The translations under genes and the position numbers were made by a program. The notes under the pieces were generated by a model that saw only the letters and a program-made list of their open reading frames with translations, had not been told where the DNA came from and ran no database searches. A DNA stretch of 64,000 bases from Actinosynnema sp. ALI-1.44 (GTDB lineage Bacteria; Actinomycetota; Actinomycetes; Mycobacteriales; Pseudonocardiaceae), in assembly GCF_001984155.1 (NCBI RefSeq), contig NZ_MTQO01000045.1:1-64000 (forward strand). The letters run 5' to 3'. Below, piece by piece: positions 4,527 through 12,789 of this stretch. The stretch's first letter is position 1. The number at the start of each line of letters is the position of its first letter.

Positions 4527-5447
4527 TCACCGTCCCCGTGGGTCGCCATCAGAAACATGCCCGGTGACGTCCTGAACGGACTTTTGCCCCTCATTGGCTC
4601 GCGATACCAGCGAATCTCGGTAACGACACACCCATGCCGCCACATAGGGCGCGATCGGTGCCAGGACAAGGTCGAGTGCGTTGCTCAGCGGAGGCAACCC
4701 GGCTACCCGTGCCGGTCCAAGCCAGCGCGGCACAGTGACGGTGCGGTGCCGGTGCCCGGTAAGGCACCGGTGCACCTCGTCCGCGACGCGTTCGGGCCGG
4801 ACGCCGAATGTGAGCCCGCGCCGCCCTTGTTCGCGGTTCGGCCGGACACCAGCCGCCCGCAGGAGCCACTCCGTCCGCGCTGGACCAGGATTGACGCTGT
4901 GGATGCGCAGGCCAGGCGTTGATTCGCGCCGCAGAGCGTGCACGAGCCCGTCGACTGCCGCTTTGGTGGCCGAGTACAGCGACAGCGACGGAACCGGCAC
5001 CCACCCGGCGACGGAGGAGATCATCACCACGTCACCGCGACGATCCGCGAGGTAAGGCAGGGCCAGGCGGGTCAGGTCCGCGACCGCGATGACGTTCAGC
5101 GCCACCACATCGTGCACAGAGTCCGCGTCCAGATCGGTGAACAGCCCGACCCGGCCCTGCCCCGCGTTGTTGACGAGCGTGTCAAGCCGACCATGGCGCT
5201 CGATGACGTAGCCGATCAACTCACGCCGTTGCCGGGGATCGGTGAGATCACACCCGACCGGGTCGACGACTCCGGGGAGGCGACTGAATGCTGTTCTCAA
5301 CCTCGCCTCGTCGCGAGCGCAGGCCACGACAGTCAGGCCAGCGGCCACAAGCCGAGCCACAACCGAGTGCCCGATCCCGGCGGAACCGCCGGTCACCAGC
5401 GCGACTCGACCAGCGACTGACCGCCTGCACCACAAGCTCATGACCAT
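4527..5447 (-). CDS. Short-chain dehydrogenase/reductase at the end of the lasso operon
   Basis: About 306 residues. It is a classical SDR: the cofactor motif TGGSAGIG (TGxxxGIG) near residue 20, NNAG, catalytic Ser in ISSVAGW, and YSATK (YxxxK). The C-terminal 60 residues form a long hydrophobic tail, so membrane association is possible. ATG 5447 and ATG 5441 are both possible starts. It lies 48 bases downstream of the second lasso cyclase on the same strand with no terminator between, so it is probably the last gene of that transcript. An SDR could oxidise or reduce a side chain of the lasso peptide, or be unrelated; the sequence gives no substrate clue. Confidence 0.85.
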   Translation of the reverse strand: MVMSLWCRRSVAGRVALVTGGSAGIGHSVVARLVAAGLTVVACARDEARLRTAFSRLPGVVDPVGCDLTDPRQRRELIGYVIERHGRLDTLVNNAGQGRVGLFTDLDADSVHDVVALNVIAVADLTRLALPYLADRRGDVVMISSVAGWVPVPSLSLYSATKAAVDGLVHALRRESTPGLRIHSVNPGPARTEWLLRAAGVRPNREQGRRGLTFGVRPERVADEVHRCLTGHRHRTVTVPRWLGPARVAGLPPLSNALDLVLAPIAPYVAAWVCRYRDSLVSRANEGQKSVQDVTGHVSDGDPRGR

Positions 5448-5495
5448 GGCGTACCCGTTCCATGTCGGTCGACGCGTACGCCCGGCAAACAACCA

Positions 5496-7316
5496 CTAGC
5501 CCCGAATCCGCTGACGCACGCCCACACCGCGTAACCACATCTCGCAGGCCGTTGCCTGCCACACGCCCTGTGCTTCGCCGACTTGCGCCGCCGGACGCTG
5601 ACACAGCGCACGCAAAGCCCGCGCGTCGACCAGGCCGAGACGGGCCAGATACGGGTCTTCCCACAGCTCCAGCAGGTCGCCGCGGTGCCATCGGAGCCCC
5701 ACATAGGTGTCCGCGGACGTCTCGGCCTTGGTGGTCCGGTTGAACACCGAGTCGGGCACAAGGCCGCGCATCGCCTCGACGATCAGCGGTTTGTGTCGCC
5801 ACGGCGTGGTGCGCTCCTCGGGGCGTACGGCCAGGCAGGCGTCCACCACCCGGTCGTCGAGGTACGGCGAAGCCACCCGCAGGCCGAGCCTGGCCATCAC
5901 CTGTTCGCCAAGGCGGAAATCGTAGGCACTGCGCCGCAACGCCAGCAGTGCGGTGTGTCCGCCTCTGGTCGGGGCGAGCGGTTCGGCGCCCTGTGCGGCG
6001 TCCCGCACCAACTCCCTTACCGCGTCGACAGCGTCACGCGTTGCCCATGGCGGGAGGCGCAGCGGGTGTCCCCAACCGTCCAGCGGGTCACGTCCCGGCG
6101 GCGGCGGTGTGGTCAACAGGTTCGCCTCGTCGGCCAGCCACTCGCGGTATGACCTGCGGTCGAACAACATGCGCAGGGTGGCGGCCAACGGCCAACGGAA
6201 GACCGCGCGATTGCCGCGGACATGGGCCAGCGCGCGAAGCGGGTGCCGGCGTACGAGGTCGTTGAGGTACTGCTCCCAGTTCACCAGCACCTCGTCCCCG
6301 CCCAGGCCGGTGAGGTGCACGCGCTGGCCGTGCGTCACCAGCCGACGACCTACCTGGACCGCCCTGGTGATCTCGGTGGCCATGCCCATCGGCTCGTCCA
6401 TCGGTACCTCGGCGGTCAGGATGTCCTGGTACGGCGGCGGCAGGTCAGCCGGATCCAGCACGTCGCGTTGCACCTCGTGCAGACCGGCAGCGGCATGGCC
6501 GGCCCAGGACATGTCGTCGTCGCCCGGGTTGCGGCTGCCCGTGGTGAACGTGACCAGGCGAGCCGGGCCACGCGCGGCGAGGTAGCACAGCGGCGTGGAG
6601 TCCAGTCCGCCCGACAGGTCGCAGCTCACCGTGCCACCTGCGCGGGTGCGCACGTCCACCGCTGTCCGCAACGCCGCGCGTAGGCCTTGGGCGCCCTCGG
6701 CCAGCGACAGCACCGGATCCGGCGGGTACCACCAGCGCACCGATCTGGCCCGGCCGTCGCCGTCCAGTTGCAGGAAGCTGTCCGGTGGCACCGCGGTGAT
6801 GCCGTGCCATGGGGACATGTCCGCCAGCGGATACGGCACCATGCCGAGCAGACGCAGCGCCAGCACCCGTTCGTCCACAACGGACTCCGTCAGCGCCGCG
6901 AGCACGTCCGCGCGGTTCGCGGCCACCCGCACGTCGCCGATCCGGGCGTGGAACACCCGGCGCAGCCCCGAAACCGTGCCCTGCACGCGAACCTGGCCCG
7001 CGATGCTGGCCACCAGGTGGACACTCCCGGGCATCGCGGACGTGAGCCGGTCCAGGCCACGGACGTTGCGCACCGGCGCAGGCAGGTACCCGCTCGGGTC
7101 CACCGGGCACGGGCCCAGCACTGCCACCGTGCCATCGCCGGAGTCGGCGAAGGCCGCCTGGTCGTCCGCCCATGTCCCGACCAGCCAAGGACGGCCGGAA
7201 GCGTGGCGGAGCACGCAGGACGCGTGTCCGGCCAACGCCGACAGGACCGGTAGGGCCGCCGTGCAGTCCGGGAGCGCCACGAACCACGTCTGGCCCGCGG
7301 CGGGGAAGCCGGTCAT
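5496..7316 (-). CDS. Second asparagine synthetase-like lasso peptide cyclase
   Basis: 606 residues from ATG 7316, whose ATGA overlaps the exporter stop. The fold follows AsnB: a degenerate N-terminal glutaminase-like domain (no N-terminal Cys nucleophile), then a synthetase domain with the ATP-pyrophosphatase loop SGGLDS (235-240) and a GGDEV motif (GLGGDEVLVNW). Lasso C proteins adenylate an Asp/Glu side chain of the core and close the macrolactam onto the N-terminal amine. It aligns closely along its length with the cyclase at 9778-11661 (shared SPWHG/CPWHG, SLAEGA, VRTRAGG, SCDLSGGLDSTP blocks). Both look intact, so this is a paralogue and not a remnant. What it acts on is unknown. Confidence 0.88.
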   Translation of the reverse strand: MTGFPAAGQTWFVALPDCTAALPVLSALAGHASCVLRHASGRPWLVGTWADDQAAFADSGDGTVAVLGPCPVDPSGYLPAPVRNVRGLDRLTSAMPGSVHLVASIAGQVRVQGTVSGLRRVFHARIGDVRVAANRADVLAALTESVVDERVLALRLLGMVPYPLADMSPWHGITAVPPDSFLQLDGDGRARSVRWWYPPDPVLSLAEGAQGLRAALRTAVDVRTRAGGTVSCDLSGGLDSTPLCYLAARGPARLVTFTTGSRNPGDDDMSWAGHAAAGLHEVQRDVLDPADLPPPYQDILTAEVPMDEPMGMATEITRAVQVGRRLVTHGQRVHLTGLGGDEVLVNWEQYLNDLVRRHPLRALAHVRGNRAVFRWPLAATLRMLFDRRSYREWLADEANLLTTPPPPGRDPLDGWGHPLRLPPWATRDAVDAVRELVRDAAQGAEPLAPTRGGHTALLALRRSAYDFRLGEQVMARLGLRVASPYLDDRVVDACLAVRPEERTTPWRHKPLIVEAMRGLVPDSVFNRTTKAETSADTYVGLRWHRGDLLELWEDPYLARLGLVDARALRALCQRPAAQVGEAQGVWQATACEMWLRGVGVRQRIRG

Positions 7317-9112
7317 CGCCGGTCTCCGTGGTCGCCGATCAGCAACTGGCCCGAGGCCAGCTCCCGGTAGAGCTCGCTGGTGCGGACCAACTCGTCGTGT
7401 GTTCCCGTTGCCGCGAGGATTCCCTGATCCAGCACCATGATCCGGTCGGCCATCCGCACGGTGGAGATCCGGTGCGCGATGATCAGCAACGAGCACTCCG
7501 CTGAGACCTGGTCGATGGCCCGGTTGAGCGCGGTCTCGTTGACCGCGTCGAGTTGGGACGTCGGTTCGTCCAACAGCAACAGGCTCGGCCGAGGCAGCAA
7601 CGCCCGGGCGATCGCGACCCGTTGCCGTTCTCCACCGGAGAGCATCGTGCCGTGCTCGCCCACTTCGGTGTCCAGTCCGTCGGGCAGCCGCCGGACCAGT
7701 TCGGCCAGGTTGACCAGCTCGACAACTCGCTGGACCTCGTCGTCGTCCGCGTCCGGCGCGGCGTAGACGAGGTTCTCCCGCAGCGTGCCGTGCAGCACCG
7801 GGGCGTGCTGTTCCACCAGTCCGATCCGGGCCCGGCAGTCCGCCGGGCTCACTCCGGCCGTGTCGACGCCGTCGAGCAGGATCGTCCCGCGCTCCGGTTG
7901 GTAGAACCGTTCCACCAGTGCGAAGATCGTCGACTTGCCCGCGCCGGACCGCCCGACGATGGCCACCTTGGCCAGTGGCGGCACCTGGAACGAGACATCG
8001 CGCAGCACCGGCCTCTCGTCGTAGCGGAACCGCACGTCGCGCAACTCGAGCACCGTGTCTACACTGTCCTTTTCGGATACCTTGGCGACCTTGCTGACCT
8101 GCTGCTCCACCGGCAGGCGCATCGCGTCGGAGATCCGCTGGAGCGCACCGAGTCCCTTTTGAACGGCACTGGCCGTGTTGAACAAACCCGCTAGCGGGAG
8201 CACGAGGTAAGTCAGGTACAGCAGGAATCCCACCAGGTCGGCGAGCGAGATGGAACCAGCCGACGCGCGGATGCCGCCGACGATGAGCACCAGGATCAGC
8301 GACCCGTTCACCGCGAGTTCGACGGCGGGGCTCACCAGCGCGTTCAACTTCGCCGCTCGGACCCCGGACGCGTAGGCGCCCTCGGCGTGCCGCGTGATCC
8401 GCGCGGTTTCACGGTCCTCGGCCCGGCAGGCTCGCACGGTCCTGACGGCGCCGAGCGCGCGCTCCAGATCGGCGGCCATCACGCCGATCCGGTCCTGGCC
8501 GGTTTCGGTGGCCACCCGGATTCCGCGCAGCACCGTGGAGACGAACACACCCGCGATCACCACCGTGGCGATGACGACGAGGAACAGCACCCAGTCCAGC
8601 CAGATCATCATCGCGACGGCACCGACGACCGCGATGACCCCGGTCGCCGCGTTGACCATGCTGAGAGCGACCACGTCCCGCAGCACAGTGGTGTCCGTGC
8701 TGGTGCGGGAGATCAGGTCGCCCAGTCGTTGCGTGTCGTAGACCCGCAGGCGCAGCCGCAGCAGCCTGGCGATCAGGCCACGACGCAGACTGAGCACTAT
8801 CCCTTCACCGCTGCGTTCCAGCAGGTAGTTCCCCACACTGTCCACAGTGGCCTGAACGATGAACAGGGCGATCAGCCCTGCCAGCAGCAGGCCGATCCCC
8901 TGGCCCGTGCCGGTCGCCTCGATCGTGCGCATGGCGAGCAAAGGTTGCAGCAGCCGGAGCCCGGCGCCGAGCACCGTCAGCGCGATCGCGGCGACGACCG
9001 GCTTGCGGTGGCTGCCGACAGTGCGCAGCAGGTCGCGCAGCCCGACTCGGTGTGGCGCCGGGTCCTCGTCGACGGAGCGTTCCGGCGGGGCCGCCGACGC
9101 CACGGCCGTCAT
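7313..9112 (-). CDS. Lasso peptide ABC exporter (fused membrane and ATPase domains)
   Basis: 599 residues. Six membrane helices occupy roughly residues 35-315, followed by an ATPase domain with Walker A GRSGAGKST (387-395), the signature LSGGERQ (491-497) and Walker B LLLLDEPTS (from about 511). This is the homodimeric type I exporter (lasso D protein) that secretes the mature peptide and usually confers self-immunity. It begins at ATG 9112 with a 4-base overlap with the leader peptidase gene, and ends in a 4-base overlap with the second cyclase, so the whole block is translationally coupled. Confidence 0.93.
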   Translation of the reverse strand: MTAVASAAPPERSVDEDPAPHRVGLRDLLRTVGSHRKPVVAAIALTVLGAGLRLLQPLLAMRTIEATGTGQGIGLLLAGLIALFIVQATVDSVGNYLLERSGEGIVLSLRRGLIARLLRLRLRVYDTQRLGDLISRTSTDTTVLRDVVALSMVNAATGVIAVVGAVAMMIWLDWVLFLVVIATVVIAGVFVSTVLRGIRVATETGQDRIGVMAADLERALGAVRTVRACRAEDRETARITRHAEGAYASGVRAAKLNALVSPAVELAVNGSLILVLIVGGIRASAGSISLADLVGFLLYLTYLVLPLAGLFNTASAVQKGLGALQRISDAMRLPVEQQVSKVAKVSEKDSVDTVLELRDVRFRYDERPVLRDVSFQVPPLAKVAIVGRSGAGKSTIFALVERFYQPERGTILLDGVDTAGVSPADCRARIGLVEQHAPVLHGTLRENLVYAAPDADDDEVQRVVELVNLAELVRRLPDGLDTEVGEHGTMLSGGERQRVAIARALLPRPSLLLLDEPTSQLDAVNETALNRAIDQVSAECSLLIIAHRISTVRMADRIMVLDQGILAATGTHDELVRTSELYRELASGQLLIGDHGDRR

Positions 9113-9546
9113 GGTCCGACGCCCCGTCCGTTCGTGGGCGCGACGCTCATCAACACCCGGAAGTAGCCAGGCTGGAACGACTCATCGACAGCCCGACCCT
9201 CAGCCTCTACCCACGCGTGTGCGTAGAAGGGCTCAGCTCGCACTCCCACGCACCAGGTCGGCCACGTGCCCCGGACCCGGCACAGCAGTGCCGTGGCGAT
9301 CGACCGGGGCACGCACCCCTGGCCCGCGCACACCACGCTCGTCGCGACCACGGCGGCCCTGGCCGCCTTCGCCTGCTCGTAGCCGGCCGGCCGTGCACCC
9401 ATGCGAACGACATCGAGCAGCTTCCGGATGCGGTGCGGCGGGAGCTTGCCGACCAGCCTCGCCAGGCCGACGAACGGCTTGGCAGCCAGGCGCCGGGACA
9501 GTGACACCGAACCGCGATCGCGGTGGATCACCAGTGGTGTGCTCAC
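9109..9546 (-). CDS. Lasso peptide leader peptidase (B2, transglutaminase-like)
   Basis: 145 residues from GTG 9546. The catalytic triad of the B2 cysteine protease family is visible: Cys78 in GQGCVPRS, His110 in YAHAWVE, and Asp121 in AVDESF. B2 proteins cut the leader from the precursor after the RRE protein has delivered it, normally two residues after the conserved Thr. The stand-alone B1 plus B2 arrangement is the actinobacterial form; proteobacteria have a fused B. The start codon overlaps the stop of the B1 gene by four bases (GTGA). Confidence 0.93.
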   Translation of the reverse strand: MSTPLVIHRDRGSVSLSRRLAAKPFVGLARLVGKLPPHRIRKLLDVVRMGARPAGYEQAKAARAAVVATSVVCAGQGCVPRSIATALLCRVRGTWPTWCVGVRAEPFYAHAWVEAEGRAVDESFQPGYFRVLMSVAPTNGRGVGP

Positions 9547-9797
9547 GAGATCACCAATCCGGCTGCCCGCAGATCCGCCACCAGTGCCATGACGTCCTTC
9601 CCGGCCCGTTCACCGTCCACATCGAACTGTTCGGTGAGTGCGCGCACCGCCTGGTCCGGCGTGCCGCCGTCGAGCAGGGTGCGCAGCGCGAGGGCGCCGC
9701 TCGGGTTGAGCTGGAAGTACTCGCCGGCACGTTCGTCCAGCAGCACCACGTTGTCCTCGGATTCCGCGATGGATACGTTATCGCGCAGTCGCAGCAT
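9543..9797 (-). CDS. Lasso peptide RRE protein (B1, PqqD-like)
   Basis: 84 residues from ATG 9797, preceded by AAAGGAA. It is a PqqD-like RiPP recognition element: a beta-strand start (MLRLRDNVSIAESEDNVVLLDERAGEYFQLN), then three helices and an AGLVIS end. The typical D-x-x-x-G-x-Y-x-x-L-N motif is present as DERAGEYFQLN. B1 proteins bind the YxxPxLxxxGxF segment of the leader and present the precursor to B2 and C. The gene starts 20 bases inside the end of the upstream cyclase gene. Confidence 0.92.
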   Translation of the reverse strand: MLRLRDNVSIAESEDNVVLLDERAGEYFQLNPSGALALRTLLDGGTPDQAVRALTEQFDVDGERAGKDVMALVADLRAAGLVIS

Positions 9798-11661
9798 TTC
9801 CGCGTTCCTTTCCGGTGGTGGCCCGTTCGGCTGCTCGCAGCCAGAGTTCGACGGCCACCGTGTCCAGCACGGCGGGCTGGTTCACGTCGTGGGGATCGGG
9901 CTGGGTACAGGCCGCGCGCAGCCGATCGGCGTCGACCAGCCCGTGCTTGGCCAGCCGTGAGTCCTCCCACAGAGCGAGCACATCCGCGCGATACCGCCGA
10001 AACCCCTGGTACTCGTCGATCGTCGGGGTGCCCTTGGTGTTGCGCCGCAGCAGGTGGTCGGGCATCACTCCGCGCATCGCGGCGAGGGTCAGCGGTTTGA
10101 ACCGCCATGGCGTGATGCGCTCGTGTTCGCGCACCGCCAGGCCCGCCTCCACCACCCGGTCGTCGAAGAACGGAGCGTCGTAGCGGACGCCGGTCCTGGC
10201 GATCACGCTCGCCAGGACGCGGTGCATCCCGGAGGTGCGCCGCAGACCGTGCACCGAGCCGTGTTGGCCGCGGGAGCCGGCCAAGGGCCGCGCTCCGGCG
10301 GCGGCCTCGACGATTCGCGTTCGGGCCGCGTGTTCGGCGTGCGCGGTGGCGTACGGCGGCAGCCGCGGCGGCAAGTCCCATTCCAGCGGCGGATACGTCT
10401 CGGAGATGAGCGGCCCGGTCAGGTCTCGTGCGCTGTCCGCGAGCCATGCGCCATACGGACGGCGGTCGGCGAGCGCCCGCACGGTCGGCAGCAGCGGCCA
10501 GCGGAACAGCGATCGGTAGGCACGCAGGTAATGCGCGGCCAGCAACGGGCGCTTGCGCACGAGCGTGTGCATGAACCCCGGCCAGCCCTGGACGACCTCG
10601 TCGCCGCCGGATCCGGTCAGGTGGATCCGGGACGCGGTCGCGGCCATCCGGCGACCCAGTTCCAGGATCAACTCGATCTGGAAGGCGTTCGGGAACGGCT
10701 GCTCCAACGGCACCCGCACGTCGAGCAGTCCGGCCACCGGCAGGGGCAGCCCGTCCGAGGCCATCACTTCGTGCCGTACGCCGGGTAGTTCGGCCGCGGC
10801 GCGTTCGGCCCACACCGTGTCGTCGCTGCTCTCGTCCCGGAACACACGGGTGAACGCGGTCAGTTCGACGTCCGCGCGGGCGGCCAGGAAACAGATCGGC
10901 GTGGAGTCGAGTCCACCGGACAGATCGCAGCTCACCAACCCACCCGCCCGAGTCCGCACCGCCACCGCGGTGCTCAGCGCGTCTCGCAGCTTCGCCGCGC
11001 CCTCGGCCAACGAGAGCTCCGGCTCGGGCGGATGCCACCATCGCACAGTCCGGCTCGCCGTACCGTTCTCCACAAGCAAGTAGCTGTCCGCGGGCACCGT
11101 TTCGACGCCGTGCCACGGGCACACTTCGTCCAGCGGGTGCGGCGGAAGTGTCAGCAGACAGGTGTCCAGCCACCGCTGGCTGATCCCGGCACCGGTCGCG
11201 GTGGCCAGCAGCCGCGCGTGATCGGCGGCCACCGTCACCCCGGAAACCCTGGTGTGGAAGACCTTCCGCAGACCGGAGGCACTGCCTTGGACCCGCAGCC
11301 GTCCGGCGACGACCGCGATGAGGTGGAAACTGCCCGGCAGGGTGAGCGCCAGCCGGTCGAGGTCGGCCGGGGTACGGACGCGGGCGGCGGCTTTGGCCAG
11401 CTCGGCGGCGGTGATCGGGCAGTGGCCCACGATCGCCAGCCGGGTGTCGCCTGCCTCGGCGAGCACGACTTCCTCGTCCGGCCACTGGCCGACGAGCCAC
11501 GGCCGGGTGGAGGGGTACGACACGGTCCGGTTGGCGTGCGCGCCCGTCAATCCAGCCGCGGCGTGCGCGGCCGGGTGGTCGGGAAGGACCGCGAACCACG
11601 TCTCACCGCGGCCGTGCAGGGCGTTCTCGGGCCGGGTGTCACGGGAATCGGCTTCGTACAC
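9778..11661 (-). CDS. Lasso peptide cyclase (asparagine synthetase-like C protein)
   Basis: 627 residues from GTG 11661. This start is chosen because GAGGAAGGA sits about eight bases upstream; an ATG at 11739 would add a Trp/Arg-rich leader not seen in the paralogue. The N-terminal glutaminase-like domain starts at GETWFAVLPD. The synthetase domain has the PP-loop SGGLDS (248-253) and GGDEV (GSGGDEVVQGW). It activates the ring-forming acidic side chain with ATP and joins it to the N-terminal amine of the core. It directly follows the precursor gene, so it is the likelier partner of that precursor. Confidence 0.92.
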   Translation of the reverse strand: MYEADSRDTRPENALHGRGETWFAVLPDHPAAHAAAGLTGAHANRTVSYPSTRPWLVGQWPDEEVVLAEAGDTRLAIVGHCPITAAELAKAAARVRTPADLDRLALTLPGSFHLIAVVAGRLRVQGSASGLRKVFHTRVSGVTVAADHARLLATATGAGISQRWLDTCLLTLPPHPLDEVCPWHGVETVPADSYLLVENGTASRTVRWWHPPEPELSLAEGAAKLRDALSTAVAVRTRAGGLVSCDLSGGLDSTPICFLAARADVELTAFTRVFRDESSDDTVWAERAAAELPGVRHEVMASDGLPLPVAGLLDVRVPLEQPFPNAFQIELILELGRRMAATASRIHLTGSGGDEVVQGWPGFMHTLVRKRPLLAAHYLRAYRSLFRWPLLPTVRALADRRPYGAWLADSARDLTGPLISETYPPLEWDLPPRLPPYATAHAEHAARTRIVEAAAGARPLAGSRGQHGSVHGLRRTSGMHRVLASVIARTGVRYDAPFFDDRVVEAGLAVREHERITPWRFKPLTLAAMRGVMPDHLLRRNTKGTPTIDEYQGFRRYRADVLALWEDSRLAKHGLVDADRLRAACTQPDPHDVNQPAVLDTVAVELWLRAAERATTGKERGNAATAR

Positions 11662-11785: not shown

Positions 11786-11905
11786 TCACGGGAACCAACG
11801 GCCCTGGACGTTGTCCCTCGGACCCTTCCGGTCACCAATACCCGTGCGCTCGCTGAAGGAGCCAGCACGAACCAGAACCGGCGTCTCGTAGACACGCTTC
11901 TGCAT
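11786..11905 (-). CDS. Lasso peptide precursor (leader plus 17-18-residue core)
   Basis: A 39-residue ORF from ATG 11905, preceded by GGGAGGGAAAGGAA. The leader holds the exact YxxPxLxxxGxF recognition motif (YETPVLVRAGSF, residues 6-17) and a Thr at 21. If Thr is at -2, as in most lasso precursors, the core is IGDRKGPRDNVQGRWFP. Its Asp31 is then position 9, giving a nine-residue ring and a tail NVQGRWFP. A cut one residue later, before Gly24, would put Asp at position 8. Longer in-frame starts exist up to 11992 but lack a good ribosome site. The gap to the cyclase gene is 124 bases. Confidence 0.9.
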   Translation of the reverse strand: MQKRVYETPVLVRAGSFSERTGIGDRKGPRDNVQGRWFP

Positions 11906-12279
11906 TTCCTTTCCCTCCCCTCCACGAAAGAGCTCTGCGATCCCTGATACATCGGCACCCCGGGCAGAACCACTGCACAGCATGAACTCCAATGGTCACA
12001 AGACAGACCTCGATGCTCGCAACGTTCCGGAACGTTCCACGCCGGTGACGACGGAAAACGGCGACGACACGGAACGACTCGTGAGACGCGGTTCCCCATC
12101 GCGTTCAACCGTGATACTACGGGAGTGGATTGCGACGGATGGGTCAGCGGTGGCCGCGTTCGGCCGATTTACTTGCTAACCCGGAGTACCGTATGAAGAG
12201 CTGGTTCCGTTGTGGCGCAAGCCAAACGTCTGTAACAACGTGATCGGTCTGAAAAGTGCGACATGCCAAGGGGAGAGCA
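11906..12279. other. Divergent control region of the lasso operon
   Basis: 374 bases between the lasso precursor gene (leftward) and a HTH regulator gene (rightward). No second precursor-like ORF with a YxxPxL motif was found on either strand. The region contains the perfect 16-base palindrome at 12021-12036. It is somewhat less GC-rich than its surroundings, as expected for promoters. Confidence 0.55.
12021..12036. promoter_or_regulatory. 16-base perfect palindrome, candidate operator
   Basis: AACGTTCCGGAACGTT is its own reverse complement and lies about 116 bases upstream of the precursor start and 244 bases upstream of the facing HTH gene. A perfect palindrome of this length in an intergenic region is a good candidate binding site for a dimeric regulator. 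The protein that would bind it is not known; the neighbouring HTH protein is the first guess. Confidence 0.4.
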
Positions 12280-12789
12280 GTGGATCGTCCACACTGGAAG
12301 CCATTGCCAGCTGATACGCGGGACGCGGCGGTGAATCTGGCCCGGTATATGCGTTCGTTACTGGACCAACACAGCCTGAGCCTGCGGAAACTGGCAGGCG
12401 ATGACGAAGTGCACTACAGCCTGACCACACTGCATCGGTACTTCTCGGGGCGGGCTTTACCGCCCCGGCATCTGGTCGAACTGATATCCCGCCGGTGCGG
12501 TGGCGACCTGTGCGAGATGTCCGAGTTGCACGACCGGGCACGTCGGGAGGGATCGAATTCCGGCGATCTTCAACTTCGGGTGGCGGTCAGCTCGGACGAC
12601 GCCGACTCCGGCGGTACCGGACTTTCCACGAGCGTTCCGGTCGACCCGCTCACCAGGAGCCTGTCCTTGCGGCTCACCTTCCACTTCGACGGCACCACGC
12701 CGGACGACGCCGCCGACATTCTCTCAGGCCGCCGGGCCGGGCACGCGCGCGTCGAACCCGTGCTGGATCCCCCGTACTCCTCGGCATAG
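12280..12789 (+). CDS. HTH (XRE-like) DNA-binding regulator
   Basis: 169 residues from GTG 12280, with AAGGGGAGA just upstream; an earlier GTG at 12256 has no such site. The N-terminal 75 residues look like a Cro/CI-type domain common in actinomycetes: LARYMRSLLDQHSLSLRKLAG, then YSLTTLHRYFSGRALPPRHLVELISRRCGG. The rest (from about residue 80) is Asp/Ser/Thr-rich with no recognised domain. It faces the lasso operon across a 374-base region and is a plausible regulator of it, but this is inference. Confidence 0.75.
   Translation: MDRPHWKPLPADTRDAAVNLARYMRSLLDQHSLSLRKLAGDDEVHYSLTTLHRYFSGRALPPRHLVELISRRCGGDLCEMSELHDRARREGSNSGDLQLRVAVSSDDADSGGTGLSTSVPVDPLTRSLSLRLTFHFDGTTPDDAADILSGRRAGHARVEPVLDPPYSSA

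Follow-up and report, generated by a model that had tools for sequence, protein, structure and literature searches.

Two apparently competent lasso-type cyclases accompany a single precursor in an operon found in two genera

Results

The window, by which we mean the whole 64,000-nt stretch analyzed (bases 1-64000 of a contig) from an 11.7-Mb genome whose gene content and relatives point to an actinomycete, probably of the Pseudonocardiaceae, contained an operon on the minus strand with the gene order A-C1-B1-B2-D-C2 and a divergently oriented gene upstream of A.

12256..12789, plus strand: divergent helix-turn-helix protein, 177 aa, upstream of A (HTH_31, 26.1 bits; cut-off 27)
11786..11905, minus strand: A, precursor, 39 aa (leader pattern, YETPVLV...GSF...TG)
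9778..11661, minus strand: C1, lasso-type macrolactam cyclase, 627 aa, GTG start (motifs and PF00733)
9543..9797, minus strand: B1, PqqD-like leader-binding protein, 84 aa (NF033530, 108 bits; cut-off 70)
9109..9546, minus strand: B2, leader peptidase (transglutaminase-like), 145 aa (NF033537, above cut-off)
7313..9112, minus strand: D, ABC exporter, 599 aa
5496..7316, minus strand: C2, second lasso-type cyclase, 606 aa, ATG start (motifs and PF00733)

C1 and B1 shared 20 bases at their junction, and overlaps of 4 bases were present at B1/B2, B2/D, and D/C2. The last of these was an ATGA, in which the ATG of C2 (7316-7314) overlapped the TGA of D (7315-7313). The coordinates, lengths, motifs, and ATGA overlap reported in the earlier note were all correct on re-examination. 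No gap was left between the overlapping genes for a further precursor inside the operon, and a second leader motif was absent from the small ORFs of the flanking intergenic stretch.

B1 and B2 exceeded the curated cut-offs of NF033530 and NF033537, respectively, the precursor combined a YxxP leader with Thr at -2, and both C1 and C2 were asparagine synthetase-like cyclases with SGGLDS and GGDE. Judged by its genes, the locus is a lasso peptide biosynthetic cluster with a predicted threaded product. The precursor consisted of the leader MQKRVYETPVLVRAGSFSERTG and the core IGDRKGPRDNVQGRWFP; the boundary was predicted from Thr at -2, and the ring is predicted to join Ile1 and Asp9.

C1 and C2 shared 47% identity over 592 aligned columns. 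Both belonged to the asparagine synthetase-like family PF00733 and contained DLSGGLDSTP and TGxGGDEV as well as, close to the C terminus, a TK motif, in agreement with the long shared blocks and the SGGLDS and GGDEV motifs previously noticed in the pair. The best NCBIfam model for both was NF033561 (albusnodin/ikarugamycin family macrolactam cyclase), although neither C2 (247 bits) nor C1 (241 bits) reached its curated cut-off of 300 bits. Neither protein had Cys2, the nucleophile at the N terminus of the glutaminase domain; they started with MTGFPAAG (C2) and MYEADSRD (C1). Because the N-terminal Cys of glutamine-dependent synthetases is missing, transfer of glutamine-derived ammonia by C2 is unlikely; C2 should instead use a peptide amine, like other lasso cyclases.

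At 90 positions conserved to at least 90% in other cyclases, C2 of the window departed once and C1 eight times, which supported the claim of the earlier note that neither is a remnant. SGGLDS, GGDE, and the TK lysine were found in all four proteins considered, i.e. C1 and C2 of the window and of the related genome G123 described below. Because the near-invariant positions of the family and the catalytic motifs are kept, catalytic activity in ATP-dependent amide formation is expected of C2. Structures related to C2 by sequence were limited to remote asparagine and beta-lactam synthetases. An AlphaFold2 model of C2, computed with C1 as the sole other row, had a mean pLDDT of 33 and was too poor for use.

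Two candidate signatures of divergence between the cyclases were rejected. The residue x in TGxGGDE, which we take to be the catalytic Glu/Tyr position of AsnB and beta-lactam synthetase, was S/H in C1 and L/R in C2 but proved uninformative, as H, I, L, F, D, and S all occur across the family. Complementary loss of conserved residues in C1 and C2 was not clearly unusual when compared with 4,717 matched quartets drawn from single-cyclase proteins: depending on the threshold, 19-78% of the quartets reached the loss totals of C1 plus C2, and 2-35% reached the smaller count. At conserved sites, C1 and C2 likewise differed no more than did matched pairs of single-cyclase proteins.

The genome was searched for a second precursor with two leader patterns at the DNA level, Y(E/D)xPx[hydrophobic]xxxGxF and the wider YxxPx[hydrophobic]xxxGx[FY]xxxT. 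On 85 related loci, the narrow pattern recovered 57 precursors and the wider one 75, the latter thus missing about 12%. In the whole genome, each pattern matched the precursor of the window alone, and a similarity search with the precursor yielded no credible second relative. Besides C1 and C2, no lasso-type cyclase was found in the genome at E<=1e-20, none of its other asparagine synthetase-type proteins matched C2 at this threshold, and no second B2 protease scored above the cut-off. The single visible precursor of the earlier note, which had proposed such a genome-wide search, was thus borne out by both patterns.

The search for relatives of C2 spanned about 1,930 genomes from its own genus and family, from a sampling of the order and class, and from one additional genus and one additional family. 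One close relative was detected, in G123, a genome of another genus of the same family; in the large searches at most three candidates were scored per genome, so that further double loci may have been missed. A contig scan with C2 produced a single 24-residue chance match, in Rhodococcus.

The locus of G123 (L050) had the same gene order, A-C1-B1-B2-D-C2, and its C2, if taken to start at the ATG, shared 8 bases with the end of D. Amino acid identities between the window and G123 were 62% for A, 61% for C1, 70% for B1, 67% for B2, 71% for D, and 63% for C2, and C1 and C2 within one genome were 45-47% identical. Between the two organisms, C1 had an NG86 dN/dS ratio of about 0.44 and C2 one of about 0.40, values that are rough in view of the high dS; by this measure C1 and C2 are under similar purifying selection. 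The wide pattern matched one precursor in the G123 genome, that of the cluster itself. A divergent helix-turn-helix gene was present at the same place (55% identity over 93 aa to that of the window), and the gene at 12256..12789 is a probable regulator. The next gene after C2 on the same strand of the window (4527-5492, minus) encoded a short-chain dehydrogenase. Because the gene after C2 in G123 was unrelated (DUF4262), the dehydrogenase gene probably lies outside the conserved locus.

The G123 core was SGSPKAARDPFGRRWLP. Both cores had 17 residues, Thr at -2, and Asp at position 9, and both contained Lys5 and a free C terminus (Pro17). Lys5 was the only extra amine in either core, and the C terminus was the only carboxylate common to both besides Asp9. 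A lysine inside the ring is not distinctive: among 63 related cores, 16 had one, mostly from single-cyclase loci.

In trees of 92 and 40 proteins, the two C1 proteins and the two C2 proteins each formed a pair with 100% support, and the pairs were sisters. The sister placement received an SH-aLRT value of 91 in the 92-protein tree and bootstrap/SH-aLRT values of 94/92 in the careful 40-protein tree, i.e. it was well supported but just below the level starred by the tree tool. The simplest interpretation is a single duplication in the lineage of this cluster, which would predate the separation of the copies in the two genera, both copies having been kept since. The genome searches, the operon and tree placement of G123, and the conserved positions and selection together disfavour a recent duplication of the cyclase gene, a decay of C2, and a distant canonical precursor for C2. 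A distant precursor had been suggested in the earlier note and is strongly disfavoured by the single pattern match, the single B2 above the cut-off, and the likewise single precursor of G123.

Altogether 86 cyclase loci were read, most of them at 14 kb. Two full-length cyclases in one locus were unusual. They occurred in six loci, namely the window, G123, and four loci of the genus g23, in which the arrangement was different. The g23 loci resemble the window in carrying two full-length cyclase genes, here side by side and about 300 bases apart (L051:8070-11932, L052:8770-12620, L053:7676-11523, and L094:5060-8907). In contrast to C1 and C2, however, their cyclases came from two distant clades, and the second had decayed motifs, with SGGLDS, GGDE, and the TK lysine lost in four of four species. 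A, B1, and B2 were not found near the tandem cyclases in these four loci. The second g23 cyclase is possibly a conserved pseudo-cyclase, likely non-catalytic.

Other departures from the usual gene content were encountered among the loci. L108:7908-8417 contained two precursor-like ORFs ahead of one cyclase, the converse of the window. In L099:3609-5971, two B1-like (PqqD) genes flanked B2 before D. Close precursors at L081:6078-6206, L082:7746-7874, and L083:7984-8112 had cores of the type CGKCGWGRDR(F/Y)CRRGHxHWxW with three or four Cys, the predicted first residue being Cys.

Discussion

The nearest relatives of C1 and C2 are found in citrulassin-like clusters. In these and related actinobacterial split-B clusters (A-C-B1-B2-D), the genes corresponding to A, C1, B1, B2, and D are the same and stand in the same order as in the window, and the leader motif is shared. 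The window differs from them by a second full-length cyclase after D and by a predicted ring of 9 residues, mostly 8 in the nearest split-B relatives.

As outlined above, one precursor was found in each of two genomes of different genera, together with two cyclases that have the appearance of complete enzymes. Both cyclases very probably act on the same precursor. We consider it about an even chance (roughly 0.5) that C1 and C2 are both catalytic and non-redundant and that both act on A. The G123 operon with its one precursor, the intact motifs in four proteins, the paralog tree, and the dN/dS ratios count for such a division of labor. Against it count the limitation to two known members, the common occurrence of a ring lysine, and a divergence between C1 and C2 that lies within the matched control.

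In this scheme, the cyclase gene would have been duplicated long ago, and both copies would have been kept as competent enzymes for one precursor. By analogy with their families, B1 would bind the leader and B2 would remove it. One cyclase, probably C1, which occupies the standard place after A, would adenylate Asp9 and close the ring between residue 1 and Asp9, and D would export the product. In the least certain step, C2 would not repeat the first amide but would form another one, again ATP-dependent, on this peptide. If the same chemistry applied in both organisms, the shared groups would allow this amide only between Lys5 and the C-terminal carboxyl or by a swap to Lys5-Asp9 with head-to-tail closure. 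Because Lys5 is the sole extra amine and the C terminus the sole shared extra carboxylate, a second amide would give a two-ring lasso. That C2 specifically forms a second amide is nevertheless doubtful, and its designation as a dedicated second cyclase for either of these bonds can only be offered tentatively.

Partial parallels to such a scheme exist. MdnB and MdnC, the related ligases of microviridin biosynthesis, act on one precursor. Two ATP-grasp ligase genes occur in some microviridin-like graspetide loci (PMC8939145), and such loci, with two related ATP-dependent ligases, offer a parallel for division of labor between paralogs; enzyme fold and peptide class are unrelated, and the comparison is an analogy only. 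In lariocidin B, a class V lasso peptide, the ring Lys is joined to the C terminus, and the clostripain-like protease LrcF, which trims the C terminus, is required for LAR-B formation (PMC11451635). A ring Lys and a C-terminal carboxyl are likewise available in the core of the window, in which the second bond is hypothetical. LrcF, not a second cyclase, is required in the lariocidin system, whereas the window has a second cyclase and no clostripain-like protease of the LrcF type among its operon genes.

A heteromer with C1 and a further amide or ligase reaction on the product were the other two options of the earlier note, which is supported in part. Two other explanations leave one precursor in place. 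C1 and C2 might form an obligate heteromer, or C2 might serve as a threading partner, so that both jointly make one ordinary macrolactam. Related synthetases such as Escherichia coli AsnB are dimers, and paralogs of dimeric enzymes often pair with each other. In both genera the two genes have stayed together in a single operon whose coding ends overlap, and the long co-retention of C1 and C2 could also reflect heteromer formation. A non-catalytic partner, however, usually sheds its catalytic residues, as exemplified by the second g23 cyclase, but C2 keeps its own. That both paralogs retain all of the motifs in two genera favours a catalytic over a purely structural C2, and we regard a heteromer as unlikely.

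The two cyclases might also be largely interchangeable, C2 providing extra cyclase dosage or catalyzing formation of that same bond when conditions differ. Each has the look of a complete cyclase, and their divergence stays within the background of single-cyclase relatives. On the other hand, fully redundant copies are seldom both kept under similar constraint, each at about 62% identity to its ortholog, and a location coupled behind D rather than beside C1 would bring no obvious gain in dosage. Simple redundancy thus appears improbable as well. A precursor elsewhere with a non-canonical leader as partner of C2 is the least probable explanation, since the share of loci missed by the wider pattern and the known ability of lasso precursors to escape motif searches (PMC12670498) are opposed by the lack of further genome matches by pattern or precursor similarity, the single B2 above the cut-off, the one pattern match in G123, and the lack of room inside the operon.

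Lasso peptides normally need one cyclase. No case of two, duplicated, or tandem competent lasso cyclases for one precursor was described in the open-access literature searched, which does not establish absence from the wider literature. The retention of two seemingly competent cyclases alongside a single precursor in both genera would point to a second amide-forming step or a heteromeric cyclase, neither of which was found described for lasso peptides in the same literature. With one probable regulator, one precursor, and five further operon genes, the locus would be a compact system for finding out whether a second ring can be closed by a cyclase of the asparagine synthetase type. Formation of a second isopeptide bond by C2, if true, would yield a genetically programmed two-ring lasso peptide, and closure of a second ring in this manner would be useful for the construction of more rigid peptide scaffolds.
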